NCBI GenBank assembly: GCA_017429325.1
Contig: JAFRPC010000048.1
Location: 1-45,464 of the forward strand
DNA length: 45,464 bases
DNA from: Oscillospiraceae bacterium
GTDB lineage: Bacteria; Bacillota; Clostridia; Oscillospirales; Oscillospiraceae
Direction of reading: 5' to 3'
The notes under the pieces are model-generated. The model searched no databases, was not told where the DNA came from, and worked only from the letters and a program-made list of their open reading frames with translations. A program made the translations under genes and the position numbers. Shown here in pieces: positions 373 to 28,140 of the stretch (its first letter is position 1; every line of letters begins with the position of its first letter).

Positions 373-401
373 TTGCTTTTTTGCAGCAGCAGAACTATAA
401 T
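373..401 (+). promoter_or_regulatory. Promoter of the 457 aa surface protein
   Basis: A -35-like TTGCTT (373-378), a 17-bp spacer and a -10 TATAAT (396-401) lie about 55 bp before the start codon. The TTGCTTTTTTG box recurs at 23400 upstream of the 935 aa protein that has the same C-terminal module. Confidence 0.7.
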
Positions 402-455
402 ATAATTGGCACGGAATACACCGTGCTGAATGACGTAAACAGGAGGAGCATACCC

Positions 456-1829
456 ATGAAAAAGACACTATCTCTGCTTCTGGCCCTCTGCATGGTTCTG
501 GCCCTGCTGAGCGTCGGCGTCTTTGCCGCCGACCCCCAGAACGAGGAACCGACCCCAGAGAGCGCCCCGGAGACCGCAGAAACCAACACAGAGCCCCCAG
601 AGACCGAGCCGGAAACCATGGAGAGCGCCCCGGAGACCATAGAAACCAACACAGAGCCCCCAGAGACCGAGCAGGAAACCATGGAGACCGACCCGGAGAC
701 CACAGAAACCAACACAGAGCCCCCAGAGACCGAGCCGGAAACCATAGAAACCAACACAGAGACCCCAGAGACCGCTCCGGAGACCATAGAAACCAACCCG
801 GAGCCCCCAGAGACCAATGCTGCGGGCGAAGACGACGCTCCCCTTGAGAACCTTGGGCCGATTCCCGAGAGCTGGGGCACAAGGGACGAGAGCCTGATCT
901 TTTATACCTCCCTCTCCGTGAGTGTGAATGTCAAGCTCAGCATCACCATCCGAGACTCCGTTGTGGCCAACGCTTCCTCCTGGTACCTGCATGTCATGGA
1001 ATATTACGACATTGAGTTGGACGACGCGTCGGGTGTTTACGAGATGCGTTTCGGAGAAGGCCAGGCGGGCGCCGTCACCAACATCAACGGCGTTGCCTGG
1101 CGGGCGGTCTACACCGACCTCGAACCACAGGAAATAGGCAGGTGGTACCGTGTCTCTCTCCATGTTAATTACGCCGACGGCAGCTCTTCCTACAACATCA
1201 GCCCGTGGATGAACGTCAAAAACTACGTTGTGGGCGAACTGATGAATCCAGGAAACCCGGACGTCGTCCGTACCTACTGCGCCGACCTGCTGAACTACTG
1301 TTATGCGGGGGTATTGCTCCATTACCCAAACTCAAACTTCGGTCTGTCTGATGAGGAGGCAGCTGTGAAGGAAGCGTTTGAGACCAAGACTGGAGCACCT
1401 GTAAGCACAGAGAATATTACCGAAAGCCCAAACATTGGATACGGCTTTAGCTGGAAACGCAGCGTCGGTGTACATTTCTTATATTTCAGTACCATGAATA
1501 TGCAGCTTGACGGTACCGTGCAGATTCAGTTGAAAGACCACGAGACCGGTGTTGTCAGACATGTCCTGAAGACAAGCTATGAAAGCACGGGCACGTACTT
1601 TGCCTTCTTCAACCAATTCGAGGCCGGAGACGTGCGCAGATGGTTTGATGTCGTGGTTTTAGTGGACGGCGTGGAGACCGGCACCCCCATGATTTGGTCC
1701 ATGGAGCCCATGATCAGAGATATTCAAGAGGACATCAGCGATTTCTTTACTCCGCCGGAAGAGTTTGTAGCTATGTACAGAGCCATGCTCACCTTAGACG
1801 ACTCCGTCGTCGCGGCCTTGCAGCCGTAG
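456..1829 (+). CDS. Secreted protein with Glu/Thr/Pro-rich repeats and duplicated C-terminal module
   Basis: 457 aa. The ATG at 456 is chosen because AGGAGGA lies just upstream and the product opens with a signal peptide (MKKTLSLLLALC to VFAA). Residues about 27-130 are a low-complexity linker built from repeated PPETEPET and TIETNTE words. From about residue 146 comes a divergent copy of the two-part module shared with the 2658 and 935 aa proteins: FYTSLSVSVNVK starts the first half, and the second half holds VDGVETGTPMIWS. The divergence suggests an older copy. No LPXTG or SLH anchor is visible. The stop codon TAG is the TAG of a GTAGGG palindrome that starts at the gene end. Two small peptide genes follow. 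The role is unknown, but it is almost certainly exported. Confidence 0.85.
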   Translation: MKKTLSLLLALCMVLALLSVGVFAADPQNEEPTPESAPETAETNTEPPETEPETMESAPETIETNTEPPETEQETMETDPETTETNTEPPETEPETIETNTETPETAPETIETNPEPPETNAAGEDDAPLENLGPIPESWGTRDESLIFYTSLSVSVNVKLSITIRDSVVANASSWYLHVMEYYDIELDDASGVYEMRFGEGQAGAVTNINGVAWRAVYTDLEPQEIGRWYRVSLHVNYADGSSSYNISPWMNVKNYVVGELMNPGNPDVVRTYCADLLNYCYAGVLLHYPNSNFGLSDEEAAVKEAFETKTGAPVSTENITESPNIGYGFSWKRSVGVHFLYFSTMNMQLDGTVQIQLKDHETGVVRHVLKTSYESTGTYFAFFNQFEAGDVRRWFDVVVLVDGVETGTPMIWSMEPMIRDIQEDISDFFTPPEEFVAMYRAMLTLDDSVVAALQP

Positions 1830-2016: not shown

Positions 2017-2202
2017 ATGAAATTTGAAAAACCCATTGCCGAGATCCACAAGTTTGGCCTGAAGGACTTCATTTCCGCTTCCTCCGAATCTCCCGTCGTT
2101 GAAACCACGCAGGCCTTCTTTAAGCCAGGAACCAACTTCGATGTTGAGGTCTGTGAAGCTTACGGAAATGCTGACAACTACTATTTCGAAGACTGCGTGT
2201 AA
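2017..2202 (+). CDS. Candidate modified-peptide precursor 1 (MKFEKP family)
   Basis: 61 aa. The ATG at 2017 has an AAAGGAG ribosome site at a normal distance and gives the same N-terminus as its two relatives. The first 24 residues (MKFEKPIAEI to ISASSE) are identical to those of the gene at 2278, and at DNA level all 72 bases match. The middle is variable. The C-terminus has two cysteines 13 residues apart (VCEAY then FEDCV), around the conserved DNY motif. There is no signal peptide or membrane segment. This layout, with a fixed leader, variable core and conserved C-terminal cysteines and aromatics, is typical of ribosomally made, modified peptides. The likely maturase is the SPASM protein at 26832, next to the third family member. 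The final structure cannot be read from sequence. A small non-modified structural protein remains possible. Confidence 0.75.
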   Translation: MKFEKPIAEIHKFGLKDFISASSESPVVETTQAFFKPGTNFDVEVCEAYGNADNYYFEDCV

Positions 2203-2277: not shown

Positions 2278-2466
2278 ATGAAATTTGAAAAACCCATTGC
2301 CGAGATCCACAAGTTTGGCCTGAAGGACTTCATTTCCGCTTCCTCCGAAGTTCCTGCCGTCGAAACCACAAAGGCGTATTATGATCCTGCCTTCATGCAT
2401 CCTGATGATCATCCGACCTGTGGCTACAGCAAATTAGACAACTACAATTTTGATAACTGTTTGTAA
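2278..2466 (+). CDS. Candidate modified-peptide precursor 2 (MKFEKP family)
   Basis: 62 aa, starting at the ATG at 2278 with AAAGGAG upstream. It is a tandem duplicate of the gene at 2017, and the similarity extends about 50 bp upstream (AAACTGTCT and TCTTTTTG words before each start). The leader is identical, the middle is different (YYDPAFMHPDD), and the end is CGYSK then DNYNFDNCL, with two cysteines 12 residues apart. This C-terminus is closer to peptide 3 at 26443 than to its neighbour, so cores and leaders may have evolved separately. The pair lies between a secreted protein gene and a terminator and is probably co-transcribed. Function is inferred from layout only. Confidence 0.75.
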   Translation: MKFEKPIAEIHKFGLKDFISASSEVPAVETTKAYYDPAFMHPDDHPTCGYSKLDNYNFDNCL

Positions 2467-2484: not shown

Positions 2485-2521
2485 AAACGGCCCGTGGAGC
2501 CTCGCCTCCGTGGGCCGTTTT
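2485..2521 (+). terminator. Terminator after the peptide pair
   Basis: A 15-bp stem, with arms AAACGGCCCGTGGAG and CTCCGTGGGCCGTTT joined with two G-U pairs around a 6-base loop, ends in a short T run 18 bp after the second peptide gene. Confidence 0.85.
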
Positions 2522-2550
2522 GACAATCACGCCAAATTTCCGCGGAACGA

Positions 2551-2579
2551 TTGACTTTATTTTTTGGATATTATATAAT
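2551..2579 (+). promoter_or_regulatory. Promoter of the giant surface protein
   Basis: TTGACT at 2551-2556, a 17-bp spacer and TATAAT at 2574-2579 lie 34 bp before the ATG at 2613. Confidence 0.8.
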
Positions 2580-2612
2580 AAGTGTGTATATTTTTACAAG
2601 GAGGGATCCCGC

Positions 2613-5600
2613 ATGAAACTGAAACGTCTCCTGTCCTGGCTGACGGCGCTGGTGATGCTGGTCAGCCTGCTTCCGGCGGGCGCTCTGCCTGCTTCGGCAA
2701 ACGGAGCAGGGACCCGCACCATTCTGGTCGGCGTCATCAACTACATCGACCAACAGGGCGACAGCTATCTGCTCCGCTACTGGGGCGGCGCGGACGGCGC
2801 CCAGGACGCCCAGTTGAATGACGTCGGCAGAGAGCAGTCCAAGACCCTCGGCTCCGACTTCTGGAACGACGATCCGCAGACCTTCCGCCTGTACACCGCC
2901 GAGATCCCGGCGGACGCCACAGGTTTCAAGCTCCACTACGAGTATCGCAGCGAGTGGTTCGGCGCCTCCGACGGCGACACCGCCCTCCACGACAGGCTCT
3001 TCGCCTTTGAATACGGCGGGGAGTACCGGGCCCTCTACGACGAACCCATCTCCAACGTCGGCACGGCGGAGGACTGGGCGGCCCTGGCGGCGGACCTGGA
3101 CGCGGGCCTCGACTACGCGGGCCGCTTCCTGACCATGACCGGCGACTTCAGCACCAACGTCCCCTTAGGCGATGAGAACCATCCCTTCCGGGGCTCGTTC
3201 GACGGCGGCGACCACTATCTGGACATCCACCTGGAGGACCCCTGGATGTGGGGCGCCGCCCCCTTCCGGGCCATTGCCGACGGTGCGGCCATTGTGAACC
3301 TGAACGTGACGGGCTCGGTGCTGGGCTCCTACCACTCGGCGGGCCTGGTGGCCATCGTCTCCGGCGGCACGGAGCAGGCGCCCAACCTCGTGGACAACTG
3401 CACGGTGTATACGGACGTGGGCGGCGACGCCTACAACGGCGGCGTGGTGGGCCACGGCACCAGCTCGCATCTGACCATCCGGAACACCGTCTACCTCGGC
3501 GCCATCTCCGACGGCTGGAACAACTCCGGCGGCCTCCAGGGCTGGGGCGACAGCAACACGCTCACCGTCGAAAACTGCCTCTTCGCCGGGTCCTACACGG
3601 GCACCGGCAGCTTTGACCCCATCGCCGTCGGCTGCGGCGACCACAGCTTTACCAACGCCTACTACGTCGCCCCGCCGGAGGGCTGGACCAGCGAGGGCAC
3701 CCCGGCAACAATGGACACGCCCACCGACAGCCTGGCCACCGAGGCCATCGTCCGGGACTGGTCCGTCTGGGTCTGCCATGAGACCCGGGTGGAGGACGTG
3801 GACGAATGGTATCTCTATACCGGCTCGCCGATCCCCCTCGCCCCCACGGTCTGGTTCAACAACAATCAGCTGACGGAGGGCACGGACTATACCTGGACCA
3901 TCGACGGCCAGAACGTGACGACCATCACCGCCAAGGGCTTCCACGAGCTGACCGTCACGGGTATAGGCGACTACAACGGTTCCGTCACCGTGCCCATCGC
4001 GGTCATCAACGCCACGCTTCCGGGCTCCGGCACCCAGGGGGATCCCTGGCGCATTGAGGACGGCGCGGACTGGGTCCGCTTCTGCCTGGACATTGAGAAC
4101 GGCAGCGACTTTGACAACGAATACGTCCAGCTCACCGCCGACATTCCCATCCGCCGGATGGCGGGCGTGGTCCAGGGCAACTTCCAGGACAAAGCCTTCT
4201 CCGGCGACTTTGACGGCGGCGGCAATACTCTGACCGTGGAGCTCAACAACACCTGGGACCAGGGCACCGCGCCCTTCTGCTGCATCGACGGCGCGGTCAT
4301 CCACGACCTGAACACCGTGGGCGAGGTCCACGGCGGCTATCACGCCGCCGGTCTCGTGGGCTTCGTCAAGGGGACCGGGAACCTGGTGGAGCGCTGCTTC
4401 GTGTCGGTCAACGTGTACGCCGACGATTACCTGGGCGGCATCGTGGGCCACGGCCTGGATTCGGAGCTCACCCTCCGGGACTGCGTCTACTCCGGCACCT
4501 TAGTGGGCGGCGGCAACGCCAAGGGCGCTCTGCTGGGCTGGGACGACAGCGGGGACAAGTACGTGGACGGCTGCTTCTACATCGCCTCCGACGACCAGAG
4601 CCCCATGAATCTGTCGCTGACCTCGGGCCTCGGCGGGTCGGTGCACGTGACGGACTGCTATACCACCTCCGACGTCTGCCAGGAGGGCACTCTGATCTAC
4701 AAGTTCCCGCTTCCGGACGTATTGTTCGGCAATATCACCGCCCCCGACGGCGCGGCCTACGTCCTTCCCTGCGAGATCCGCGGCGTCGCCGCCGTCTATA
4801 ACTGCGCGGACGGGCCTGTGGCTCCCGCGCCGACGGTGGAGTTCGCCGGGACCGTGCTGATCGAGGGGACGGATTACACCCTTCGGGTCACAGACCTGGA
4901 CGGCGAGGAGCTCCCCGGTCCCCTCACCGAGCTGGGCAGTTACCGGCTGGTGGTGGAGGGCTGCGGCAGCTATACGGGCCAGGAGCTCTTCCCCTTCGAG
5001 GTAGGGCAGATCACCTGGGCCTTAGAGGCCGACGGCAGCGGCCAGTACACCATCCTCCACTTCTCCGGCCTCGGCCCCATGGAGGACCTGGAGGCCTATC
5101 CCTATGACGGGCAGACCGCCCGCTGGGGCATCCCGGCGGCTGACTTGACGGACGTGCTGCTCGTGGTCATCGACGTGGGCATCACCTCCATCGGCGCCTA
5201 TGCCTTCGACGGGCTCAGCAGTCTGGAGAAGGCCATTATCCCCGCGGGCCTCACCCGCATCGGGAAATACGCCTTCCCGACGAGCGGCAGCGCCTTTACG
5301 GAGCTCCGTCTGCCTGCCAGCTTAGAGAAGGTGGAGGAGTACGCCTTCTGCGGCCTCGACAATGTGACCGAGCTCTACTGCGGCCGCGAGCAGAACGAGT
5401 GGTGGGATTTCGTCTGGTCCGACAGGGTCAACACCGACGGCAACAGCGTCCTCACCGGGTACAACAACAACTGGCAGCCGGTGGATTCCTACTACGAGGT
5501 CCTCAGCGATATCCTGACCGGTCCCGTCGCCCACGGCTCGGTCCACTTCATGGTGGACGGCCAGGACGCGAGCCAGGCCAGCGACGGCCAGCTCGTGTAT

Positions 5601-8600
5601 GTCATTCCCGAGGCGGACGACGGCTATGAGCTGGACGAGGTCCACATCAGCTTCCAGGACCACGGTGCGCCGGTGGACCTCTCCATTCAGCCCCTCTGGG
5701 GCTTCACCATGCCCTGCGGGGCGGACGTGACCGTGACGCCCAGCTTCCGGGCCATCCAGTACCACATCAGCTATCAGGGCCTCCAGGGGGTCCAGAACCC
5801 GCCCGCGAACCCCACGGGCTATACCGTCGAGACCCCCAGCTTCACCCTGACGAACCCCGCCAAGACGGGCTATAGCTTCCTGGGCTGGCGGCTGAACGGC
5901 GGCGCGACCCTTGCGCTGAACGCCACCGTCTACCAGGGCACCATCGGCGACCTGGACTTTGCCGCCGAGTGGTCGGCCAATCCCTACACCATACACTTTG
6001 ACGCCAATGGCGGCACGGGGACCATGACGGACCAGAGCTTTACCTACGATACGGCCCAGCCTCTGAGCCGCAATGCCTTCACCCGTTTGGGCTACAATTT
6101 CCTGGGCTGGAACACCCGGGCCGACGGCCAGGGCACCGCCTATTCGGACGAGGAAACGGTGCAAAATCTCACGGCGACAGCCAACGACACCGTCACCCTC
6201 TACGCCCAGTGGGCGGCCAACAGCTACACCGTGGTCTTCGATCCCAACGGCGGCACGGGGACCATGCAGAACCAGCGCTTTACCTACGACCTGCCCCAGG
6301 CCCTGAACGCCAACGCCTACACCCGGAGCTGCTATCACTTCGTCGAGTGGAATCTGGCCCCCGACGGCAGCGGTGCGGGCTTCCAGGACGGGGACACCGT
6401 ATCCAACCTCACCCCCGTCAACGGCGGAACGGTGACACTCTACGCCGTCTGGGCGCCCTATTCCTACACCGTGCAGTTTGACGCCAACGGCGGCAGCGGC
6501 AACATGCCGGACCAGCCCTTCACCTACGACGCGCCCCAGCCCCTGACCCCCAACGCCTTCACCCGCCCGGGCTATACCTTCACCGGATGGAACACCCGGG
6601 CCGACGGTTTAGGCGCCGCCTACGCGGACGGGGACACCGTGCTGAACCTGACGACGGTGGACAACGATGTGGTGGTACTCTACGCCCAGTGGTCCGCCCA
6701 CAGCTACACCGTGCAGTTCGACCCCAACGGCGGCGTCGGCAGTATGCCGGACCAGCCCATGACCTTCGGCACGGCAGCGAATCTGGACCCCAACGCCTTC
6801 ACCCTCGCGGGCTATGACTTCACCGGCTGGAACACCCAGCCTGACGGCAACGGCACGTTCTATGCGGACGGGGACAGCGTGCAGGACCTGACCACGGTGG
6901 ACAACGGCGTGGTGGTGCTCTACGCCCAGTGGGACCCCTGGATGTATACCATCCTCTTCCTGCCCAACAACAGCGCCGCCACGGGCAATATGCCGAACCA
7001 GTGCCTCGTCTACGACGCGCCGCAGCCCCTGGACCCCATCGCCTATGACGTGACGGGCTATCACTTCACCCACTGGTGCACCACGGCCTCGGGCAGCGGC
7101 GGCACCGACTACCAGGACGGGGAGACCGTCAACTTCCTGCTGAGCCACAACGGCGCGGTCAAACGCCTCTTTGCCCAGTGGGCGCCCAATACCTATACCG
7201 TGCACTTCGACCCCAACGGGGGCACGGGAGGGCCTATGCCGGACCATGGCCTCACTTATGACATGGCCGATACCCTGACGCCCAACGTCTTCACCCGTCA
7301 GAACTATAGCTTCAACGGCTGGAACACCCAGCCCGACGGCCTCGGAACGCCCTATGCCGACGGCGCTTCGGTGATGAATCTCACCACCGGCCAGGGCGAT
7401 GTGGTGGTCCTCTACGCCCAGTGGACGGCGGCCACCTACACGGTGGTCTTCGACCCCAACGGCGCCCCCAACGGGACCATGGCGGATCAGGCCATCCCCT
7501 ATGACACGGCGATGACGCTGACGCCCAACGCCTATTCCTGGCCCGGCTATCACTTCGACGCCTGGTGCGACGTTCCCGGCGGCGTCGGCGGCATCTTCCT
7601 GCAGGATCAGGAGCCCGTGCTGAACCTTGCCACCGGGCCCAGCATTACCCTCTACGCCCAGTGGAAGCCCAACGACTACGTTGTAATCTTTGACCCCAAC
7701 GCCCCGGTCAACACCTGGTACGGGTCGATGCAGAACCAGAGCTTCACCTACGGTGTGACGCAGAACCTGTACCCCATCTCCTTCGTCCGCCCAGGCTATA
7801 CCTTCCTGGGCTGGGACACCCTTCCCGGCGGCGGCGGGCTCTTCTTCAACGACATGGACCCGGGCTCCAACATCCCCGTTGCCAACGACGCCGCTGCCGT
7901 GACCCTCTACGCCCAGTGGCAGGTCAACAGCTACAACGTGCACTTTGACGCCAACCTGGGCACCGGCGCCCAGATGCCGGACCAGAGCTTCGTCTACGAC
8001 CAGTGGCAGAATCTGGACGCCAACACCTACACCCGCACGGGCTACACCTTCGTGGGCTGGTGCGAGGACATCGAGGGCTATATCGGCCCGATCTATACCG
8101 ACCGGGAATCCGTGTGCAACCTGACCGACCAAAACAACGCCACGGTGACGCTCTACGCCATCTGGGAGCCCGTGAGCTGGACCGTGATCTACCACCCCAA
8201 CGGACCCAACGCCCCGGATCAGTATCAGGTCTTCTACTATGACCAGCCCCAGGCCATCCAACCCAACCCCTACTTCTATCCGAATATGCACTTTGTGGAG
8301 TGGAGGGACGACCCCAACGGCGGCGGTACGATCTATAACCCCGGACAGATCCTCTTAAACACCTTCGCCGTCAACGGGATGCAGATCGACCTCTACGCCA
8401 GGTGGGTGCCCGGCAGCTACACCGTGGTCTTCAATCCCAACGCCCCCGCGGGCGGCTATTCGGGCGCCATGGCGAACCAGACCCTTCCCTGCGGCGTGAA
8501 CACGGCGCTGACGCCGAACGCCTACACCCGTCCGGGCTTCAACTTCGACCATTGGGAGTACACCGACTACAGCACCTCGTCCTCCGGCACCGTCCACAGC

Positions 8601-10589
8601 TATCAGGACTGTGAGGCCGTGAGCATCACCGACTGGGACGGCGCCATCTGCGAACTCTACGCCCAGTGGAAGGGCTATGACTACACCGTGGTCTTCCACC
8701 CCAACAATGCAAACGCGACGGGCGCCATGCTGAACGAGAATTTCGTCTACGGTCAGCCCAGGGCCCTCTTCGCCAACGCCTATGAAGTGACGGGCTATCA
8801 CTTCCAGTGCTGGACCACCCAGCCCAACGGCAGCGGCGACACCTATTACAACCAGCAGCTCGTGGACATCTGTCCCGCCTCGAACAACGCCACCGTGCAC
8901 CTCTACGCCCAGTGGAAGAACAACACCTACTACGTGGACTTCGACGCCAACGGCGGCACGGGCAGCATGGGGAGCCAGATGTTCACCTACGGTGTGGCCG
9001 GGACCCTGAACCCCAACGTCTTCACCCGCGTCGGCTATACCTTCATCGGCTGGAACACCAGGGCCGACGGCAGCGGTACGAGCTACCAGGACCTCAATAC
9101 CGTCCTGAACCTCACCTCCGTCCAAAACGGCTCTGTTACCCTCTACGCCCAGTGGCGGCCCCACACCTACACCGTCAGCTTTGAGCGCAACGGCGCCATC
9201 CTGGGCCGGATGCAGCCCCAGAGCTTCACCTACGACGTGCCCCAGGCCCTGTCCGCTAACGTCTTCCTCCACCGGGAGAAGGTGTTCGACCACTGGAACA
9301 CCGCGCCGGACGACTCCGGCACCTCCTACACGGACCAGGAGGTGGTCTCGAATCTATCCGCCGTGGACGGCGACACCATCACCCTCTACGCCCAGTGGCG
9401 GGAGAAGTACTTCGCCATCTGGATCGACGACTCCTACGGAGGCGCCCTCTATGTCGAGCCGACGCAATGCGTCGTTGGCACGCCGGTCCGCCTTGAGGCG
9501 GAGCCGGATCCCGGCATGGTGGTTCGCGAGCTCAGCGCCGTGTACACCGACGTGGAGGGGATCACAGCGGCCCTGGACCTGGTGAAGGCGGAGGACGAGG
9601 AGAACGTCTGGACCTTCGACATGCCCGCCGGCGACGTGGAAGTCTACGCGGTCTTCGGTCCCCCCGCTTATCTGAACGAGGAACTGAGCTTCTACACCTC
9701 CGTCTCCATCGGCGCGGAGGTCAAGGCCACCTTTACCATTCGCCAGAACGTCCTGAACGGCTTCGACTCCTGGTATCTGGAGCTCAACAAGCTGGACAGC
9801 CTCGGCAATGTCCTGGAGACCAAGCGCTTCGGCGAGGGCCAGGAGGGCGCCGTCTCCGCCATCGGCACCGTGGCCTGGCGGGCGGTCTACACCGACATCA
9901 CCGCCAAGGAAATGGGCGTGACCTTCTCCGCCGTGCTCCACGCCTTTGACCCCGACGGAAACGAGTACTACGGCAATGCCGTGGAGAACAGCGTCAAGGC
10001 CTATGTGATAGGGGAGCTGCTGAAGACTGACAACACCGACGCCACCCGCACCCTCTGCGCCGACCTGCTGAACTACGGCGCGGCGGCCCAGGTCTACTTC
10101 GACTACGACACGGACAATTTGGTGAACCAGGATCTGGGCCAGGCCACCGATGACTGGTACTATTACCAGACCGCCGACGAGGCCCCCGCCACCCAGGTCA
10201 ACGGCGCCAACGGCCCGAACCTCTACGGCTCCGTATCCATCAAGAACCGGGTGGTGCTGAGCATCACGGCCCGGAATGTGGGCACAGGCGGCACTGTGCA
10301 GATCCAGGTCAGGAACCACGAGACCCACGAGGTCAAGGAGGTCCTGGAGACCACCCAGGTGGGCAGCGTCTACACCTCTAAGTTCTCCAATGTGGAGGCC
10401 AATGAGATGCGCACCATGTTCGACTTCGTGGCCCTGGTGGACGGCGTGGAGACCGGCCAGCCCCTGACCTGGTCCGTGGAGGGCTACGTCCGGGCGGCCC
10501 GCCTGAACAGCAGCATCAGCCCCGCCGAGCTGGCCCTGCTCAACGCCCTGCTCATCTACACCGACTCCGCCGCGGCAGCGCTGCCGTGA
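2613..10589 (+). CDS. Giant secreted protein: two GLUG-like regions, LRR, 14 InlB-type repeats, duplicated C-terminal module
   Basis: 2658 aa. The ATG at 2613 follows AAGGAGG and opens a signal peptide (MKLKRLLSWLTALVMLVSLL). Two similar beta-rich regions start near residues 150 and 476 (FRGSFDGG and FSGDFDGG, then LVGF and GGIVGHG), resembling GLUG-type repeats. A short BspA-type leucine-rich segment (YAFDGLSSLEKAIIP) lies near 855-930. Then come 14 InlB B / Listeria-Bacteroides repeats of about 80 aa, residues about 1124-2266, each with FDxNGG, GYxFxGW and LYAQW motifs. The shared duplicated module starts near residue 2357. Such proteins are usually adhesins or surface scaffolds. I see no LPXTG, SLH or transmembrane anchor, so retention may rest on the C-terminal module. 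No peptide gene follows this one. Confidence 0.9.
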   Translation: MKLKRLLSWLTALVMLVSLLPAGALPASANGAGTRTILVGVINYIDQQGDSYLLRYWGGADGAQDAQLNDVGREQSKTLGSDFWNDDPQTFRLYTAEIPADATGFKLHYEYRSEWFGASDGDTALHDRLFAFEYGGEYRALYDEPISNVGTAEDWAALAADLDAGLDYAGRFLTMTGDFSTNVPLGDENHPFRGSFDGGDHYLDIHLEDPWMWGAAPFRAIADGAAIVNLNVTGSVLGSYHSAGLVAIVSGGTEQAPNLVDNCTVYTDVGGDAYNGGVVGHGTSSHLTIRNTVYLGAISDGWNNSGGLQGWGDSNTLTVENCLFAGSYTGTGSFDPIAVGCGDHSFTNAYYVAPPEGWTSEGTPATMDTPTDSLATEAIVRDWSVWVCHETRVEDVDEWYLYTGSPIPLAPTVWFNNNQLTEGTDYTWTIDGQNVTTITAKGFHELTVTGIGDYNGSVTVPIAVINATLPGSGTQGDPWRIEDGADWVRFCLDIENGSDFDNEYVQLTADIPIRRMAGVVQGNFQDKAFSGDFDGGGNTLTVELNNTWDQGTAPFCCIDGAVIHDLNTVGEVHGGYHAAGLVGFVKGTGNLVERCFVSVNVYADDYLGGIVGHGLDSELTLRDCVYSGTLVGGGNAKGALLGWDDSGDKYVDGCFYIASDDQSPMNLSLTSGLGGSVHVTDCYTTSDVCQEGTLIYKFPLPDVLFGNITAPDGAAYVLPCEIRGVAAVYNCADGPVAPAPTVEFAGTVLIEGTDYTLRVTDLDGEELPGPLTELGSYRLVVEGCGSYTGQELFPFEVGQITWALEADGSGQYTILHFSGLGPMEDLEAYPYDGQTARWGIPAADLTDVLLVVIDVGITSIGAYAFDGLSSLEKAIIPAGLTRIGKYAFPTSGSAFTELRLPASLEKVEEYAFCGLDNVTELYCGREQNEWWDFVWSDRVNTDGNSVLTGYNNNWQPVDSYYEVLSDILTGPVAHGSVHFMVDGQDASQASDGQLVYVIPEADDGYELDEVHISFQDHGAPVDLSIQPLWGFTMPCGADVTVTPSFRAIQYHISYQGLQGVQNPPANPTGYTVETPSFTLTNPAKTGYSFLGWRLNGGATLALNATVYQGTIGDLDFAAEWSANPYTIHFDANGGTGTMTDQSFTYDTAQPLSRNAFTRLGYNFLGWNTRADGQGTAYSDEETVQNLTATANDTVTLYAQWAANSYTVVFDPNGGTGTMQNQRFTYDLPQALNANAYTRSCYHFVEWNLAPDGSGAGFQDGDTVSNLTPVNGGTVTLYAVWAPYSYTVQFDANGGSGNMPDQPFTYDAPQPLTPNAFTRPGYTFTGWNTRADGLGAAYADGDTVLNLTTVDNDVVVLYAQWSAHSYTVQFDPNGGVGSMPDQPMTFGTAANLDPNAFTLAGYDFTGWNTQPDGNGTFYADGDSVQDLTTVDNGVVVLYAQWDPWMYTILFLPNNSAATGNMPNQCLVYDAPQPLDPIAYDVTGYHFTHWCTTASGSGGTDYQDGETVNFLLSHNGAVKRLFAQWAPNTYTVHFDPNGGTGGPMPDHGLTYDMADTLTPNVFTRQNYSFNGWNTQPDGLGTPYADGASVMNLTTGQGDVVVLYAQWTAATYTVVFDPNGAPNGTMADQAIPYDTAMTLTPNAYSWPGYHFDAWCDVPGGVGGIFLQDQEPVLNLATGPSITLYAQWKPNDYVVIFDPNAPVNTWYGSMQNQSFTYGVTQNLYPISFVRPGYTFLGWDTLPGGGGLFFNDMDPGSNIPVANDAAAVTLYAQWQVNSYNVHFDANLGTGAQMPDQSFVYDQWQNLDANTYTRTGYTFVGWCEDIEGYIGPIYTDRESVCNLTDQNNATVTLYAIWEPVSWTVIYHPNGPNAPDQYQVFYYDQPQAIQPNPYFYPNMHFVEWRDDPNGGGTIYNPGQILLNTFAVNGMQIDLYARWVPGSYTVVFNPNAPAGGYSGAMANQTLPCGVNTALTPNAYTRPGFNFDHWEYTDYSTSSSGTVHSYQDCEAVSITDWDGAICELYAQWKGYDYTVVFHPNNANATGAMLNENFVYGQPRALFANAYEVTGYHFQCWTTQPNGSGDTYYNQQLVDICPASNNATVHLYAQWKNNTYYVDFDANGGTGSMGSQMFTYGVAGTLNPNVFTRVGYTFIGWNTRADGSGTSYQDLNTVLNLTSVQNGSVTLYAQWRPHTYTVSFERNGAILGRMQPQSFTYDVPQALSANVFLHREKVFDHWNTAPDDSGTSYTDQEVVSNLSAVDGDTITLYAQWREKYFAIWIDDSYGGALYVEPTQCVVGTPVRLEAEPDPGMVVRELSAVYTDVEGITAALDLVKAEDEENVWTFDMPAGDVEVYAVFGPPAYLNEELSFYTSVSIGAEVKATFTIRQNVLNGFDSWYLELNKLDSLGNVLETKRFGEGQEGAVSAIGTVAWRAVYTDITAKEMGVTFSAVLHAFDPDGNEYYGNAVENSVKAYVIGELLKTDNTDATRTLCADLLNYGAAAQVYFDYDTDNLVNQDLGQATDDWYYYQTADEAPATQVNGANGPNLYGSVSIKNRVVLSITARNVGTGGTVQIQVRNHETHEVKEVLETTQVGSVYTSKFSNVEANEMRTMFDFVALVDGVETGQPLTWSVEGYVRAARLNSSISPAELALLNALLIYTDSAAAALP
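5985..9410 (+). repeat. Tandem InlB B-type coding repeats (14 copies)
   Basis: Fourteen tandem units of about 240 bp within the giant gene encode YTVxFDxNGG, GYxFxGWNT and VTLYAQW blocks. One degenerate unit precedes them (about 5755-5984). Units 1-4 and 13 are closest to consensus; units 8-12 carry insertions and lost glycines. Recombination between units could change protein length. Confidence 0.9.
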
Positions 10590-19300: not shown

Positions 19301-19813
19301 TTCGGCCTGACGGAGCACATGGACCGCGCTATGCTGGTGACGGTGCTCTACCGCCTGGCCGGAAAGCCGCCGGTGGAGGCCGAGACCCTCTTTGAGGACG
19401 TGAAGCCCGGCTCCTACTATGAGGACGCGGTGATTTGGGGCTCCCACTACGGCGTCATCTATGGCACCAGCCCCACCAAGTTCTCCCCCAAGGAGGATGT
19501 CAGCCGCCAGCAGGTGGCCACCTTCCTCTTCCGGTATCTGATGAATCTGGACCCGGAGAACGCGGACCGGGCGGATCTGTCCGCCTTCCCCGACGCCGGG
19601 GAGGTCAGCGACTTCGCCAAGGAGAGTATGGCCTGGGCGGTAGAGGCTGAAATTATTCACGGCATGGACGTGAACGGGACCCTCTGCCTGGTGCCCGGCG
19701 CCTCCGCCACCCGCGCCGAGGTCTCCGTGATGCTGATGCACTTCTGCCGCTACCTGGAGCAGAAAGGCCTCGCGGAGCTCAACGCCACCGTCTTCCAGCC
19801 CATGATGCGTTGA
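16391..19813 (+). CDS. Secreted wall hydrolase with NlpC/P60-like, GH25 muramidase and SLH domains
   Basis: 1140 aa. The ATG at 16391 follows GGAGGAACGCC and opens a signal peptide (MKYLLYRLTALLLAGLLLF). Residues about 30-240 look like beta-propeller-type repeats (VLYYARS, CAFDLQS). Residues 255-440 are an acidic Pro-rich linker. A NlpC/P60-like region follows, with the Cys in GADCSGF near 543 and the His in SGGHIMLVSD near 588. GH25 lysozyme starts near 684 (GIDVSEWQGTVNW), with YDVEE and QYTNKGEIPGIVGDVDLNYW. One Cys-rich repeat (ATCTEAG then CTRCG) precedes three SLH repeats near 940-1120, which should bind the wall. Two linker words, PVGADALDGP and PVGADAPDGP, are encoded by GTAGGG palindromes. 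The role is probably wall remodelling, with glycan and peptide cleavage joined in one chain. Confidence 0.9.
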   Translation: MKYLLYRLTALLLAGLLLFSAGGTYVFASHTALPDPACRLGTTSLSMLAGGGRSVETEQGSVYYIDDSDGSVRRFGSQTVLVEGPVQKLNYEDGVLYYARSREEGVFDLCAFDLQSRRETVLLGGFSGELGQVYLVDGQYLDFSCDNAVWELELATGFYRLVLFAKELWSFVPTGCGLIYATGSLFDYSIYADGLLLVEHADDYSVDFGLGENGALVYSLEGEDCQMDLAAAFAGIAQPVQFKGYSYIALSSDAEAQELTPEERTAAEEAEHQHIDEVVAELQDLPENRPQELGPAVDNDVEEAPADPADADPNDPQAPAENDPAPAEPEPADPEPTEQGPTEPEPTEPVGADALDGPEAPADEETTEIETDSADADTADPVGADAPDGPDAPADEKPTENDADPSDTAPDPAETETEPAETDPDDEFPIIVQIPDPVPVVNDDGALRRPVTEGVQNIVRRARQMLNVKWTPRQDIKGWVASNYSYVTYKKGVTYTGVPYCQGGHTVGLGSNTFTAFVNAVNDVNSVMYTTRTTYARGGPYYGADCSGFVSVSWGTGYCTTFSSDRSKTDYIGKSYTQIELGDALISGGHIMLVSDVTYNADGSIYSVEISHSNNSHSYMDCCYSMHYVGTSGLQKLQSNWLNSGYGIYRYKNRNSVTYTHDCAVPLEGDECPSCGTGMFLKPGIDVSEWQGTVNWQTVASEVSFALLRVGYTGSENPVQVKDSRFDFNAQGCEDNGIPYGVYFYGGATTPEMARQEADMVLGYIGLDHFENMSLPIFYDVEEKNNILKLSNEELLAVVTAFCQEIEDFGGRAGVYASTSVWNTQLTGSAYNMWVRWVAQYESSVCTAQNGANVWQYTNKGEIPGIVGDVDLNYWLGTVGDMEHRYVTTETSATCTEAGRITYTCLHCPKTYDKEVPALGHNYVEHICTRCGRVQTVYEIFSDVRAGKWYSEAVEYVFTHSLLVGKTEDSFGLTEHMDRAMLVTVLYRLAGKPPVEAETLFEDVKPGSYYEDAVIWGSHYGVIYGTSPTKFSPKEDVSRQQVATFLFRYLMNLDPENADRADLSAFPDAGEVSDFAKESMAWAVEAEIIHGMDVNGTLCLVPGASATRAEVSVMLMHFCRYLEQKGLAELNATVFQPMMR
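17436..17560. repeat. Two GTAGGG palindromes in frame in the GH25 gene
   Basis: Copies at about 17436-17464 and 17531-17560, both starting CCCGTAGGGGCCGA and ending GACGGCCC. They are read as PVGADALDGP and PVGADAPDGP. The same frame and orientation gives PVGGGALDAP in MtaB. Confidence 0.8.
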
Positions 19814-23428: not shown

Positions 23429-23519
23429 AATAAACTGAAGATAGTGTGTACAGCTATCGCTTTCTCAGCTGCGGTTTTCCACGGCAGAGAAAGAGTGAAA
23501 ATTGAATAGGAGGGCATCT

Positions 23520-26327
23520 ATGAACAAGAGAACACTCTGCTGGCTGCTGTCCGCGGTCCTGCTGCTCTCTGTGCTGGCGGTCCCCGCGATCCCGGCGCAG
23601 GCGGCGTCCTTAGCGACAAACGGCACCGAAGCTCCGATGCGATTCGATGGTGTGAATCCGCCGCTGACAGATTCCGACGAGGACATCTGGGTTTACTTTG
23701 TGGACGAGACCGACTGCGCCAACGCCTGGGTCTATCCCTTCCTGGAAACTGTGTCCAGCGAATCCGGCGAGGACCTGGAACCCGGCGACACCGAGGAGGA
23801 TCTGCCCACGCCCATTGACTTCCCGGGAATTCAGATGACTGCCCTCGGCACCGAAAAGGGCGGACACAATTACTATTGCTATGTACTTTCCATCAGCGAC
23901 TACTCCCACGTGATCTTCAACAACGGCAGCACCGGCGGCGTGAACTCCGGCAACCAGACGCCGGACCTGCCCGCCAAGGCCAGCGCCCGGATAGACGACA
24001 ATGGCCGCAAATACGTGGTCTACTACATCTACCGCGACAATGGCCTGATGGCGGCCTCCATCGGCGACGATGTCTGGCCGAATCCCATGGTCACGGTGGA
24101 GCCCACCTGCACCGAGCCGGGCTACACCCGCTACGAGGGCCTGATCACCGGCGCGGTCTACGGCGAGACTACCTATGAGGCTCTGGGCCACCTGCCGGGC
24201 GAGACGGAGATCGAGAACGAGATCCCCGCCACCTGCACTGCCCCCGGCAGCTACGACGAGGTCGTCTACTGCCAGCGCTGCAACGCGGAGCTTACCCGTA
24301 CCACGGTCCCCACGGAGCAGCTTGACCACGTCCCCGGCGAGACTGTGATCGAGAATGAAGTCCCTGCCACCTGCACCGCCCCCGGCGGCTATGACGAGGT
24401 GATCTCCTGCACCCTCTGCGGCGCACAGATCTCCCGCACCCATGTGGAGACCCCGCAGCTGCCCCACACCCCCGGCGAGACCGTGATTGAAAACGTGGAC
24501 GAACCCACCTGCACCGCCCCCGGCGGTCATGACGAGGTGGTCTACTGCACCGTCTGTAACAACGAGATTTCCCGCTTCCGCGTCACCGACCCGGCCCTGG
24601 GCCACAACTGGGGCGAATGGCTGGTGGACCACGAGCCCACCTGTACCGATATGGGCGTGTATTACCACGTCTGTGCCCGCTGCGGCCTGATGGAGCAGCA
24701 GGATATAGACGCTCTGGGCCATGACCCGCTTCCCGCGGAGCAGGAGCGCTATGTGGCTGCGACCTGCACCACAGAGGGCGGCTTCGACATGGTAGTCCGC
24801 TGCCGCCGCTGCAATTCCGCCCTCTCCTCCGAACATACGACCCTGCCCGCCCTGGGCCATAACTGGGGCGCCTGGCAGGTGGACCATGCCCCCACCTGCA
24901 CCGACTGGGGCGTGAACTACCGCGTCTGCGGACGCTGCAATCTCATGGAGCAGGAGGACATTGAGCCTCTGGGCCACACCCCCGGCGAGCCTGTGGCCGA
25001 AAACGAGATCCCCGCCACCTGCACCGAAGAGGGCAGCGTGGACTATGTCACCTACTGTACGGTCTGCGGCGCTGTGCTGCTCCGGGATCCCATTGTCATT
25101 CCTATGGCGGACCACACCCCCGGCGAGCCTGTGGCCGAGAACCAGACAGCTCCCACCTGCACCGAACCCGGCACCGTTGAGGTCGTGATCTACTGCACCG
25201 TCTGCGGCCAGGACATCAGCAGAGAGCCTGTGATTACCGACGATCCTCTGGGCCATCTTCCCAAGGACCCCGTAAGGGAGAACTACGTTGCGCCTACTCT
25301 TACGGAGCACGGCGGATATGAAAACGTGGTCTACTGCGAGCGCTGCGGCATTGAGATAAGCCGCGAGTATTTCTATCTGCCCCCCATTGCCCCCGTTGAT
25401 ACCCCCGAGTATAACCCCCTCCTCAGCTTCTATACCTCCATCTCCATTGGCATGGAGGTCAAGACCACCTTCACGGTCCGCACGACTGTTCTGAGCGGCT
25501 ATGACTCCTGGTACCTGGAGCTCAGCAAGCTGGACGGCAACGGCGAAGTAATGGAGACCAAGCGCTTTGGCGAAGGCCAGGAAGGCCCTGTCACCGCTGT
25601 CGGCACCGTAGCCTGGAGAGCCATCTACACCGACATCACCGCCAAGGAAATGGGCGTGACCTTCTCCGCCACCCTCCATGCTTTCAACGCCGAAGGCCAT
25701 GAGTACTACGGCGATGCCGTCACAAACACCGTTAAGGACTATGTGGTGGGCGAGTTGACGAAGACGGACAACACCGCTGCCACCCGTACCCTCTGTGCCG
25801 ACATGCTGAACTACGGCGCGGCAGCCCAGACCTACTTCGAGTACGACACCGAAAACCTGGTGAACCAGAATCTGAGCGCTGCGGCTGCTTCCGCTCTAAG
25901 TCAGTTCGAGACCAAGACCCAGGCCCCCGCTGCCTTGGTGAATGGCTCCAACGGCCCGAACCTCTACGGCTCCGTGTCCATCAAGAACCGTGTGGTGCTG
26001 AGCATCACAGCCCGCGGCCTCAGTACCGAGGGCACTGTGAAGATCCAGGTGAAGAAGCAGGGCTCCAACGAGGTCAAGGAGGTCCTGGAGACCACCAAGG
26101 TCGGCAGCGTCTACACCGCCAAGTTCTCCAACGCGGAGGCCAATGAAATGCGCGACATGTTTGAGTTCACGGCCCTGGTGGACGGGGTGGAAACCGGCAC
26201 GCCGCTGCTGTGGTCCGTGGAGGGCTACGTCCGTGCGGCCCGTCTGAATTCCAGCACCAGCGCGGCGGAGTTGGCCCTGCTCAACGCCCTGCTCATCTAC
26301 ACCGACTCTGCCGCAGCCATGTCCTGA
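23520..26327 (+). CDS. Secreted protein with CBM26-like domain, cysteine repeats and duplicated C-terminal module
   Basis: 935 aa. The ATG at 23520 follows AGGAGGG and opens a signal peptide ending near IPAQAAS (residue 30). Residues about 55-172 resemble a starch-binding CBM26 module (AWVYPF, FPGIQM, SHVIFNNGS and NQTPDL), so glucan binding is likely. Residues 195-635 hold ten repeats of about 45 aa with TCTxxG then CxxC (for example ATCTAPGGYDEV); eight have all three cysteines. One such repeat is also in the GH25/SLH protein. From about 636 the shared two-part module begins (LLSFYTSISIGMEVK, then NLYGSVSIKNRVV near 814). There is no enzyme motif and no LPXTG or SLH anchor. Peptide gene 3 and the SPASM protein follow directly, so the surface protein and the peptide system may be one unit. 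Confidence 0.88.
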   Translation: MNKRTLCWLLSAVLLLSVLAVPAIPAQAASLATNGTEAPMRFDGVNPPLTDSDEDIWVYFVDETDCANAWVYPFLETVSSESGEDLEPGDTEEDLPTPIDFPGIQMTALGTEKGGHNYYCYVLSISDYSHVIFNNGSTGGVNSGNQTPDLPAKASARIDDNGRKYVVYYIYRDNGLMAASIGDDVWPNPMVTVEPTCTEPGYTRYEGLITGAVYGETTYEALGHLPGETEIENEIPATCTAPGSYDEVVYCQRCNAELTRTTVPTEQLDHVPGETVIENEVPATCTAPGGYDEVISCTLCGAQISRTHVETPQLPHTPGETVIENVDEPTCTAPGGHDEVVYCTVCNNEISRFRVTDPALGHNWGEWLVDHEPTCTDMGVYYHVCARCGLMEQQDIDALGHDPLPAEQERYVAATCTTEGGFDMVVRCRRCNSALSSEHTTLPALGHNWGAWQVDHAPTCTDWGVNYRVCGRCNLMEQEDIEPLGHTPGEPVAENEIPATCTEEGSVDYVTYCTVCGAVLLRDPIVIPMADHTPGEPVAENQTAPTCTEPGTVEVVIYCTVCGQDISREPVITDDPLGHLPKDPVRENYVAPTLTEHGGYENVVYCERCGIEISREYFYLPPIAPVDTPEYNPLLSFYTSISIGMEVKTTFTVRTTVLSGYDSWYLELSKLDGNGEVMETKRFGEGQEGPVTAVGTVAWRAIYTDITAKEMGVTFSATLHAFNAEGHEYYGDAVTNTVKDYVVGELTKTDNTAATRTLCADMLNYGAAAQTYFEYDTENLVNQNLSAAAASALSQFETKTQAPAALVNGSNGPNLYGSVSIKNRVVLSITARGLSTEGTVKIQVKKQGSNEVKEVLETTKVGSVYTAKFSNAEANEMRDMFEFTALVDGVETGTPLLWSVEGYVRAARLNSSTSAAELALLNALLIYTDSAAAMS

Positions 26328-26442
26328 AAAGGACCGCTCCGCCCGCGGCCTGAACCGACCGCGAGACGGGCACCCCTCAACTTTGTCCAACTGCCGCATT
26401 TGCGGCTGAGGAAATAATTCTACGAAAGGAGTTTGCCACAGA

Positions 26443-26631
26443 ATGAAATTTGAGAAGCCCATTGCCGAGATCCAGAAGTTCGACCTGAAGGACGTCATCT
26501 CTGCTTCCTCCGAGGGCGGCGAGACCCCCACCACCACTAAGAAGAGCCAGCCTGGCACCATTGTTGGTGACGAGGGCGGCGTCTGCTCCTACACCAAGGC
26601 CGACAACTACAACTTCGACAACTGCCTGTAA
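26443..26631 (+). CDS. Candidate modified-peptide precursor 3 (MKFEKP family)
   Basis: 62 aa, ATG at 26443 with AAAGGAG at 26425-26431. The leader MKFEKPIAEIQKF to ISASSE differs from peptides 1 and 2 at only a few residues. The middle is different and polar (GGETPTTTKKSQPG). The end, CSYTKADNYNFDNCL, matches peptide 2 closely, with two cysteines 12 residues apart. No signal peptide is seen. It is the family member nearest the radical SAM/SPASM gene, with 200 bp between them that hold a REP-like element. That linkage is the main reason to propose that all three peptides are its substrates. The FxxP word in the leader (FEKP) recalls the YxxP word of lasso-peptide leaders that bind RRE domains; this is only an analogy. 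Confidence 0.78.
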   Translation: MKFEKPIAEIQKFDLKDVISASSEGGETPTTTKKSQPGTIVGDEGGVCSYTKADNYNFDNCL

Positions 26632-26712
26632 GATTTTAAGCAACCCAAAGCCGGGTCCGGTCGCACCGACAGGTACGCCCGGGCCCGGTCCCTACTGCCA
26701 AGACCTGACAAC

Positions 26713-26809
26713 GTGACAACAGGGACGTTCTCTGTGACAACGGGGACGGTTCTCTGTGTCACGTAAGTTAACATAATAATGTGACAGAGAGAATCGTCCC
26801 TGTTGTCAC
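26713..26809. repeat. REP-like cluster between peptide 3 and the SPASM gene
   Basis: Three related units built from GTGACAACAGGGACGGTTCT and ending TGTGTCAC: 26713-26738 and 26734-26762 in direct order, and 26781-26809 inverted. They form a large stem. The sequence type resembles REP units linked to REP-associated tyrosine transposases in other Firmicutes (from memory). No transposase is present in the window. Confidence 0.75.
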
Positions 26810-26831
26810 GGGAACAAAGAAGGAAACGTCT

Positions 26832-27950
26832 ATGGAACCACAAAACAATCTCCTATCCGAGCGCAACAAGAAGATATGGCGCAAAAATCAAATTCCGGTC
26901 TCCCCGTATTTTGAACTGACGCCTCGCTGCACCCTGGACTGCAAGATGTGTTACGTCCATCTCACCCGGGAACAAATGGGCGACCGCCGGGAGCTGACTG
27001 CCGAGCAGTGGAATCAAATTGCCGACGAAGCGGTCAAGGCCGGTATGATCTATGTGGTGCTGACCGGCGGCGAATGTATGCTCCATCCCGGTTTCTGGGA
27101 CATCTATCACCATCTGCTGGACCTGGGCGTCGTCGTCACCATCAACACCAACGCCTACGCCCTGACCGACGAGGACATCGAGCGCTTCAAAAAGCGTCCC
27201 CCCTCCGGGTTCCGCGTGACGCTCTACGGGGCCTCCGAGGAGGGCTACGAGCGCTGCACCGGCCGCCGCGCTTTCCAGCGGGTCATGGACAACATCAAAA
27301 AGCTGCGGGCAGCCGGTTTCTGGACCGTTGTGGCCCTGACCCTGAGCCGATACAATGCCGACGAGTTTCTCGAAATGGTCAAACTGGCCAGTTATCCGGG
27401 CATTCCGGTGAACTACGTCATGGAGCTTTCTCCCCCGAACGAGGACACGGGCCGACAGATAGACGACTTCAGCCTCAGCCGCCAGGAGATCATCGACAAG
27501 ACCCTGGAGCTCTACCAGTCGCAGAACCGCTCCGTCTTCCGGAACGAGCCCATTACAGAGCTTCCGGCTCTGCTGCCCGACGACCCCAACTGCAAGGGGA
27601 TGCGCTGCGGCTCCGGCACGACCTCCTTTGTGATCCACTGGGACGGACGCATGTCTCCCTGCTTCGACTTCCGGAATGACGTGCGGGTCCAGGACGTGGG
27701 CTTCCAGGCCGCCTGGGAGATCACCAAGAAGCTGGCAAGGGAGTGCCCTCAGCCCGTGGAGTGCGAGAGCTGCCGCCTGCTGCCGATTTGCAACGACTGT
27801 GCGCTGACCCGCCGTGACCCGAAAAACCCCGGCCACTGCGACCCGGAGCGCTGCCGCATCACCATCGAGCGCTACAACGCCGGCCTGACCACCCTGGAGC
27901 CGAAGGAGCCCGCCGCCCAGGACCTGGTGGAAGGAAAAGAAGAATGCTGA
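26832..27950 (+). CDS. Radical SAM/SPASM protein, candidate peptide maturase
   Basis: 372 aa. The ATG at 26832 has AAGGAA upstream. An earlier in-frame GTG at 26781 lies inside the repeat unit and was rejected. The SAM cluster motif is CTLDCKMC (Cys 33, 37, 40), followed by a TGGECMLHP block. The C-terminus is a SPASM domain: Cys 254 and 259, then C-x12-G-x4-C (259 to 277), then CESCRLLPICNDC (311, 314, 320, 323) and Cys 336 and 341, enough for two extra Fe-S clusters. SPASM proteins commonly form thioether or C-C crosslinks in peptides. There is no N-terminal RRE/PqqD domain, and none is adjacent. Substrates are inferred to be the three MKFEKP peptides. Alternatives are an anaerobic sulfatase-type maturase (no sulfatase seen) or a heme-type SPASM enzyme. 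Confidence 0.88.
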   Translation: MEPQNNLLSERNKKIWRKNQIPVSPYFELTPRCTLDCKMCYVHLTREQMGDRRELTAEQWNQIADEAVKAGMIYVVLTGGECMLHPGFWDIYHHLLDLGVVVTINTNAYALTDEDIERFKKRPPSGFRVTLYGASEEGYERCTGRRAFQRVMDNIKKLRAAGFWTVVALTLSRYNADEFLEMVKLASYPGIPVNYVMELSPPNEDTGRQIDDFSLSRQEIIDKTLELYQSQNRSVFRNEPITELPALLPDDPNCKGMRCGSGTTSFVIHWDGRMSPCFDFRNDVRVQDVGFQAAWEITKKLARECPQPVECESCRLLPICNDCALTRRDPKNPGHCDPERCRITIERYNAGLTTLEPKEPAAQDLVEGKEEC

Positions 27951-27951
27951 T

Positions 27952-27985
27952 CGAAAAACCCGCCGACCCGTCGGCGGGTTTTTCG
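27952..27985 (+). terminator. Terminator after the SPASM gene
   Basis: Arms CGAAAAACCCGCCGA and TCGGCGGGTTTTTCG, a perfect 15-bp stem immediately after the stop codon. No transporter or protease gene follows before it. Confidence 0.95.
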
Positions 27986-28020
27986 GTGCTTCGATAAGCT
28001 TGTGAACGCAGTCTTTGGCA

Positions 28021-28140
28021 GTGAAGAGTGAAGAGTGAAGAGTTGTGGGATTCTGTAATTTGCCAATTGCAGAATATATTTTTTTATATCGCAGATATAA
28101 AAAACTCCGAAACTCTTCACTTTTCACTTTGCATTCTTCA
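28021..28140. repeat. Inverted heptanucleotide arrays
   Basis: Three GTGAAGA units (28021-28041) and, about 70 bp on, a degenerate inverted array (CTCTTCA, CTTTTCA, CTTTGCA, TTCTTCA; about 28112-28140). The two could pair as a long stem. The AT-rich centre holds no gene. Confidence 0.7.

Follow-up and report, generated by a model that had tools for sequence, protein, structure and literature searches.

Many pairs of a radical SAM (rSAM) enzyme and a peptide exist without a name, and the three-residue cyclophanes (triceptides) are defined by an aromatic-X-Asn/Asp-like core motif. Among thioether peptides, the NxxC-type ranthipeptide NxxcA of Streptococcus orisratti has its Cys joined to an upstream Asn (Cys23-Asn20), as given in the available part of PMC8326336; the same part describes the leader of SuiB as binding its enzyme directly, and sets the auxiliary clusters of sactisynthases and ranthisynthases apart from those of SuiB and PqqE, which are fully ligated. 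Seven SPASM cysteines are reported, in the accessible text of PMC10352776, for the thioether enzymes QhpD, CteB and Tte1186. PapB is reported to give no product from a core in the order D-S-A-N-C, in which Asp comes before Cys; a PapB-like rule would then not fit an acceptor upstream of the Cys.

The window analysed here is a stretch of 45,464 nucleotides from an Oscillospiraceae bacterium (assembly GCA_017429325.1, contig JAFRPC010000048.1). A sequence-only reading had placed in it a 62-aa peptide ORF upstream of a SPASM gene, two further members of the peptide family, and an enzyme with three SAM-cluster cysteines and a Cys-rich C-terminus. All of these are present, with 200 bp between the peptide and enzyme genes:

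26443..26631, plus strand: putative precursor peptide, 62 aa (ORF list, alignment, dN/dS, core comparison)
26443..26514, plus strand: its predicted leader, about residues 1-24 (leader alignment)
26584-26586, plus strand: core Cys48 of this peptide (core comparison)
26605-26607, plus strand: core Asn55 (core comparison)
26623-26625, plus strand: core Cys61 (core comparison)
26650..26689, plus strand: hairpin between the peptide stop and the enzyme (folding; same place in orthologues)
26734..26809, no strand: near-perfect inverted repeat in the intergenic gap (gap alignment)
26832..27950, plus strand: radical SAM/SPASM enzyme, 372 aa (Pfam, cluster Cys alignment, PDB profile)
2017..2202, plus strand: paralogous putative precursor, 61 aa, no rSAM gene found beside it
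2278..2466, plus strand: paralogous putative precursor, 62 aa, with a hairpin after it and no adjacent rSAM gene found

The enzyme gene is best started at ATG 26832; orthologues align from there, so the GTG at 26781, where a longer ORF begins, is probably not the gene start. Pfam recognises a Radical_SAM domain (PF04055, E 7.8e-27) and a SPASM domain (PF13186, E 2.3e-4, 21.8 bits against a cut-off of 21.5). The protein begins at the barrel, and no fused RRE domain was detected by Pfam. A Cx3Cx2C motif (C33/C37/C40) is followed by seven C-terminal cysteines (C259, C277, C311, C314, C320, C323 and C341). In an alignment of 49 rows (48 of 65 non-redundant relatives plus the window enzyme), C33, C40 and all seven SPASM cysteines are invariant (49/49), and C37 is kept in at least 90%. 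The number of SPASM cysteines equals that reported for the three thioether enzymes above, which, like the contrast between auxiliary clusters, is only suggestive.

NCBIfam gave 61 matching models for the enzyme, none over its cut-off among the best 25 of these; the top score was that of the mycofactocin maturase (74.9 bits), with PqqE fourth. Among PDB entries, the enzyme family profile matched the maturase SkfB best (E 4.4e-32), followed lower down by a sulfatase-maturating enzyme, 5v1q (which we take to be SuiB), PqqE and, last of ten, 5wgg (presumably CteB). NCBIfam precursor models, SCIFF included, had no match at E<=1 for the peptides at 26443 and 2017, and the peptide at 2278 had just two unrelated ones (E 0.062 and 0.19). 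The suspicion that the pair belongs to no named class was thus borne out: in Pfam and NCBIfam, no named family was reached beyond the Radical_SAM and SPASM domains. A literature search of titles and abstract starts, outside subscription journals and bioRxiv, found no description of this peptide-enzyme pair.

Set against the described systems, the locus shares features with each. Like NxxcA, as far as its partial source describes it, it combines a short precursor, a SPASM maturase and an Asn upstream of a Cys as proposed acceptor, but with N-x5-C spacing and two Cys in place of N-x2-C. With the SCIFF and freyrasin ranthipeptides (CteA/CteB, PapA/PapB) it shares, in the portions of the sources available, the seven-Cys SPASM domain (CteB), a Cys core and, for SCIFF, occurrence in Clostridia; unlike them it has two core Cys instead of six, no RRE and an Asn that precedes the Cys, and the SCIFF and PapB NCBIfam models stay below cut-off for the window enzyme. 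The SkfB profile match recalls the sactipeptides (SkfA/SkfB, AlbA), but the window enzyme lies far below the SkfB and AlbA cut-offs and no fused RRE was found. MftC and PqqE, the mycofactocin and PQQ maturases, are also short SPASM enzymes without an RRE of their own; their models, however, score the window enzyme at 75 and 69 bits against cut-offs of 265 and 381, and no PqqD-like gene was recognised beside it. Gut and rumen SPASM clusters (L009-L082 outside clade A2, defined below) have enzymes 30-43% identical to this one and, in many loci, a neighbouring short peptide whose leader is Y-E-x-P-like, but many contain PqqD-like and S24-like genes (by eye), their peptide is often downstream and their cores are different. 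The cassette is a genuine, unnamed branch of a known SPASM-RiPP kind that recurs in related bacteria.

A close enzyme (E<=2.6e-178) was found in 7 of 23 same-genus genomes, most of which are incomplete, and the peptide lies immediately upstream in all seven. A contig search gave 79 loci with enzyme relatives (best 80 of 95 matches kept); in the closest, L004-L008 (50-75% identity), an MKFE-type peptide starts 240-311 bp before the enzyme start (5/5), a count that overlaps with the previous one, as five of the seven paired genomes are those of L004-L008. At E<=1e-80, a search of 295 genomes of the order matched only the own genome, so as far as that sample goes the close enzyme is confined to the genus. 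In a quick tree, the window enzyme falls in clade A1 (SH-aLRT 100), and L038, L039, L043, L053, L070, L075 and L076 form clade A2 (SH-aLRT 98). A short peptide lies just upstream of the enzyme in 13/13 rows of A1 and A2 together, and the leader profile described below recognises 11 of the 13; for A2 alone it recognises 5/7, the peptides of L038 and L053 having been assigned by eye. Given that A1 and A2 are not sisters in this tree, the pairing with the peptide leader is either old or repeated. These data support a precursor-maturase pair that is conserved as a unit, and a short precursor with a conserved leader beside a modifying enzyme across genomes (7/7) is the arrangement by which a RiPP system is recognised.

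The peptide alignment consists of a conserved leader, a variable linker and a core that is conserved again. The peptide is under purifying selection, with dN/dS values of 0.06-0.43 for six ortholog pairs (rough values, from Nei-Gojobori-style counts on short sequences). We compared nine A1-type cores, those of the seven paired peptides and the two window paralogues. Constant in all nine are the first Cys, a Tyr two or three residues on, an Asn at -6 and the penultimate Cys; position -1 is Asp or Asn (9/9), position -3 is Phe or Trp in eight cores and Met in L005, and position -5, where DNY has its Tyr, holds Tyr, Asp or Pro. The Cys, Tyr, Phe and Asp/Asn of the core had been proposed as the conserved, modified residues. 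The two Cys, the Tyr after the first Cys and Asn -6 withstand the comparison; the Phe and the DNY Tyr are rejected as fixed residues, being replaced in some cores by Met or Trp and by Asp or Pro, respectively. The consensus is better written as C-x(1,2)-Y ... N-x5-C-[LVI]. In A2, the core carries a single Cys close to the C-terminus, except that the contigs of L075 and L076 also contain Cys-less copies.

The leader of the close set follows the pattern MKFExP..E..xF.L.D.IS.S over its first ~24 residues, and a 24-column profile of it had hits in 44 of the 400 family genomes searched (E<=0.05), the weakest of them doubtful. After removal of duplicates by their last 20 residues, there were 85 matches at E<=0.5 and 66 at E<=1e-3. 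Five of the 66 (L009, L011, L026 twice, L068), from PqqD-type groups with the peptide downstream of the enzyme, were dropped; all five have a core Cys and one has a downstream rSAM gene. The 61 remaining rows served for both neighbourhood counts. An rSAM gene lies within 1.5 kb downstream of 18 of the 24 peptides with a core Cys and of 2 of the 37 without (Fisher p 1.5e-8, a test that ignores shared descent), the rSAM share being inflated because many loci were found through the enzyme. Without the five Cys-less rows that show <600 bp downstream, the counts are 18/24 and 2/32 (p 8.7e-8). The phmmer searches for rSAM genes used nine and six query proteins and may have overlooked remote ones: that of L207 was found only via Pfam, and before this find the counts with/without rSAM stood at 16/8 (Cys) and 2/30 (Cys-less). 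The L208 peptide, above the E<=1e-3 limit, was left out. The core-Cys peptides without a downstream rSAM gene are those at 2017 and 2278 in the window, L127, L190, L199 and the second tandem peptide of L241, scored so because the called rSAM ORF overlaps it; the Cys-less peptides before a SPASM gene are two members of the tandem array in L076. That the core Cys tracks an adjacent rSAM gene favours Cys-centred thioether chemistry.

We consider it probable that the locus is a minimal RiPP cassette, in which a leader peptide and a SPASM enzyme make Cys thioether rings. The first ~24 residues of the peptide would be a leader recognised by the maturation machinery, and the enzyme would use SAM-derived radicals to activate a carbon of the C-terminal core, which is then bonded to a Cys sulfur, giving a product with one or two rings. 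By analogy with NxxcA, our first guess is that the likeliest ring forms between Cys61, the penultimate residue, and Asn55, the invariant Asn upstream of it; for Cys48, a second acceptor may lie near C-x-Y. For leader reading without an RRE, a PqqD-like protein from another locus of the genome (C66 or C51) could act in trans; alternatively, the leader may bind the enzyme directly, as in SuiB. PqqD matches in the own genome lie on contigs C66 (over cut-off), C51 and C41 (both below), with none in the window contig C62, and two of the three adjoin other rSAM genes. By eye, no PqqD-like gene was seen among the small ORFs near the A1 and A2 enzymes, and a Pfam scan of eight neighbours recognised no PqqD, peptide protease or exporter. 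Genes for export and processing are absent from the cassette, and export of the product is presumed. Three such peptides are encoded in the own genome (2.03 Mb in 68 contigs, 73% complete) but only one close enzyme, which probably also serves the paralogous peptides at 2 kb. As an unnamed and compact precursor-enzyme pair, the cassette can be tested with two small genes.

The enzyme might instead make a carbon-carbon link of the cyclophane or Glu/Lys-aromatic type, using the aromatics of C-x-Y or NxF, with the Cys left free, disulfide-bonded or used later; we regard this as unlikely. The near-constant aromatic at -3 (8/9), the Asp/Asn at -1 and the Tyr after the first Cys (9/9 each) would suit such chemistry, as would the ranking of the mycofactocin maturase first and PqqE fourth among NCBIfam scores, both far below cut-off. 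Against it, Met takes the place of the -3 aromatic in L005, no triceptide-like aromatic-X-Asn/Asp motif was seen in the A2 cores, most of which retain the C-terminal Cys, and the adjacent rSAM gene tracks the core Cys, in an association scored for Cys alone.

The hairpin after the window peptide folds at -32.4 kcal/mol (z -3.9 for 26632-26700, dinucleotide shuffles). Ten of the 11 pairs folded have a hairpin after the peptide stop: the window, L004-L007 and L236 in A1, and L039, L043, L070 and L075 in A2, with z values of -2.7 to -7.3 (mononucleotide shuffles); the exception, L008, is weak (z -1.4). The A2 hairpins differ in sequence and share the same place. Across four orthologue hairpins, 93.8% of cells pair and 2 of 12 pairs are changed on both sides; since 64 of 500 shuffles reach these two double-sided changes, covariation is weak evidence. 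The plus strand showed no terminator-like site, and the hairpin is therefore read as attenuating or stabilising; it may keep the enzyme message below that of the precursor. No sigma-70-like promoter was found in 26300-28050. Of seven gaps aligned, that of the window alone has the inverted repeat at 26734-26809; half-sites resembling it lie on contigs C42 and C58 of the own genome.

Taken narrowly, as a Cys core with a close enzyme, the family holds together, the peptide accompanying the close enzyme wherever the latter was found in the genus (7/7). Taken broadly, by its leader, the peptide family mostly goes without an adjacent rSAM gene: despite the enzyme-biased sampling, none was found in the 1.5 kb downstream of 41 of the 61 leader peptides, and 35 have neither core Cys nor downstream rSAM (five of these show <600 bp). 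The MKFEKPIAEI-type leader, offered by the sequence-only reading as a marker of the system, is rejected as such; the leader alone is not diagnostic because its relatives occur with other rSAM families or with none. Its rSAM partners are of at least three types: the A1/A2 enzymes, a 495-aa SPASM protein (L237, close to the L130 and L179 enzymes, E<=4.1e-179) and a 453-457-aa type (L207, L208; nearest model TIGR04463, PapB third, below cut-off). The same leader with and without a maturase, and with and without Cys, offers a natural comparison, which could show in what way one leader type serves several rSAM enzymes without an adjacent recognition domain.

Leader peptides also lie, more often than control ORFs, behind large proteins with a C-terminal domain; three proteins with this domain stand next to the window peptides:

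23502..26327, plus strand: large protein whose N-terminus looks signal-like by eye; its end lies 116 bp upstream of the peptide at 26443
381..1829, plus strand: protein with a paired C-terminal domain, 188 bp before the peptide at 2017
2520..10589, plus strand: 2689-aa repeat-rich protein with the C-terminal domain, directly after the peptide at 2278

An iterated profile from the C-terminus of 23502-26327 defined a unit of ~65 aa, usually paired at the extreme C-terminus of large proteins, several of which have signal-like N-termini (by eye). In 23502-26327 its two copies span residues 705-775 and 871-937 (nucleotides 25614-25826 and 26112-26312), and the domain is also present in ORF 2-280. 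A 304-aa C-terminal query had 14 matches in the own genome, some of them partial. For the window domain copy, no Pfam or NCBIfam family was over cut-off; across 30 domain members, no family of either matched more than one, the matches being single-member sub-cut-off or isolated ones. The only PDB match of the domain had E 0.23.

A domain protein ends within 700 bp upstream of 21 of 54 leader peptides (those with >=400 bp upstream), compared with 7 of 464 control small ORFs, which are any ORFs of 28-70 aa from those loci that follow an RBS, many of which are surely no genes. It precedes 5 of 14 peptides with an rSAM gene and 16 of 40 without (two L241 rows scored as without), and in 12 of these 16 the distance is 4-47 bp. 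The link is an association, not a mechanism. These counts, with the 35 leader peptides that lack both Cys and rSAM, would fit a peptide that is a small co-expressed partner of large domain-bearing secreted proteins, its leader serving as a motif for docking or export and SPASM modification being optional and confined to some lineages. We find this distinctly unlikely as the main explanation, although it is compatible with a thioether-forming cassette and does not exclude it: 33 of the 54 peptides show no domain protein upstream, the window peptides at 2017 and 2278 share one upstream protein that is counted twice, and in the own genome a peptide follows only 2 of 9 intact domain ends. Within A1, only the window and L004 show the domain protein, the other five contigs ending 152-414 bp upstream. 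If true, the link to secreted proteins would suggest a peptide role other than bacteriocin or cofactor. A broader reading, to which we give a small but appreciable chance, is that one leader type is the shared adaptor of a surface-linked peptide system: leader peptides would be made with giant secreted paired-domain proteins, lineages would have attached different SPASM/rSAM maturases (at least three types) or none, and the product would work at the cell surface with the large protein, not as a free bacteriocin.

That peptide and enzyme are unrelated neighbours, the peptide being no substrate and the adjacency mere synteny in one genus, is highly improbable: similar-looking neighbours do flank the cassette in L004-L008 as far as the contigs reach (by eye), but A2 and, elsewhere, two other rSAM types show the pairing as well, purifying selection acts on the peptide and core Cys is associated with rSAM.

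A mobile element as carrier found no support: the DNA had no match among phage records, and all 255 plasmid records with a match to the enzyme are <60% identical to it (22-25% for the eight listed). On one side of the cassette are uvrD/brkB-family genes, on the other spoIID and genes for a beta-lactamase-family protein, a deaminase and a sigma-70 factor, all named from their Pfam matches.

Several other loci deserve mention. Outside A2, L009-L082 represent a large rumen and gut SPASM family, Prevotella included, with PqqD-like genes; the two enzymes tested, those of L024 and L051, reached no NCBIfam cut-off among the models listed. In L012, L020, L021, L022 and L031, the SPASM gene is preceded by a further small ORF, which has a GG-type leader, is presumably nif11-like and stands next to another short peptide. 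In L132, L186, L189, L193 and L203, the genes that come after Cys-less leader peptides are HPr-kinase/ScmC-like, S24-like, ABC-transporter or PqqD-like, and may represent one more type of RiPP cluster; among these five loci, the S24 match in L193 is the only one over cut-off, the rest being weak or made by eye. Elsewhere in the window, 16391-19813 encodes a protein of 1140 aa in which Pfam recognises a lysozyme-type domain (GH25) and an SLH domain. An SLH secreted protein also occurs in L134, on the minus strand (6855-7709), where its C-terminal end, DNMTEKG, resembles that of the adjacent leader peptide (7717-7824), ENMTDKG.
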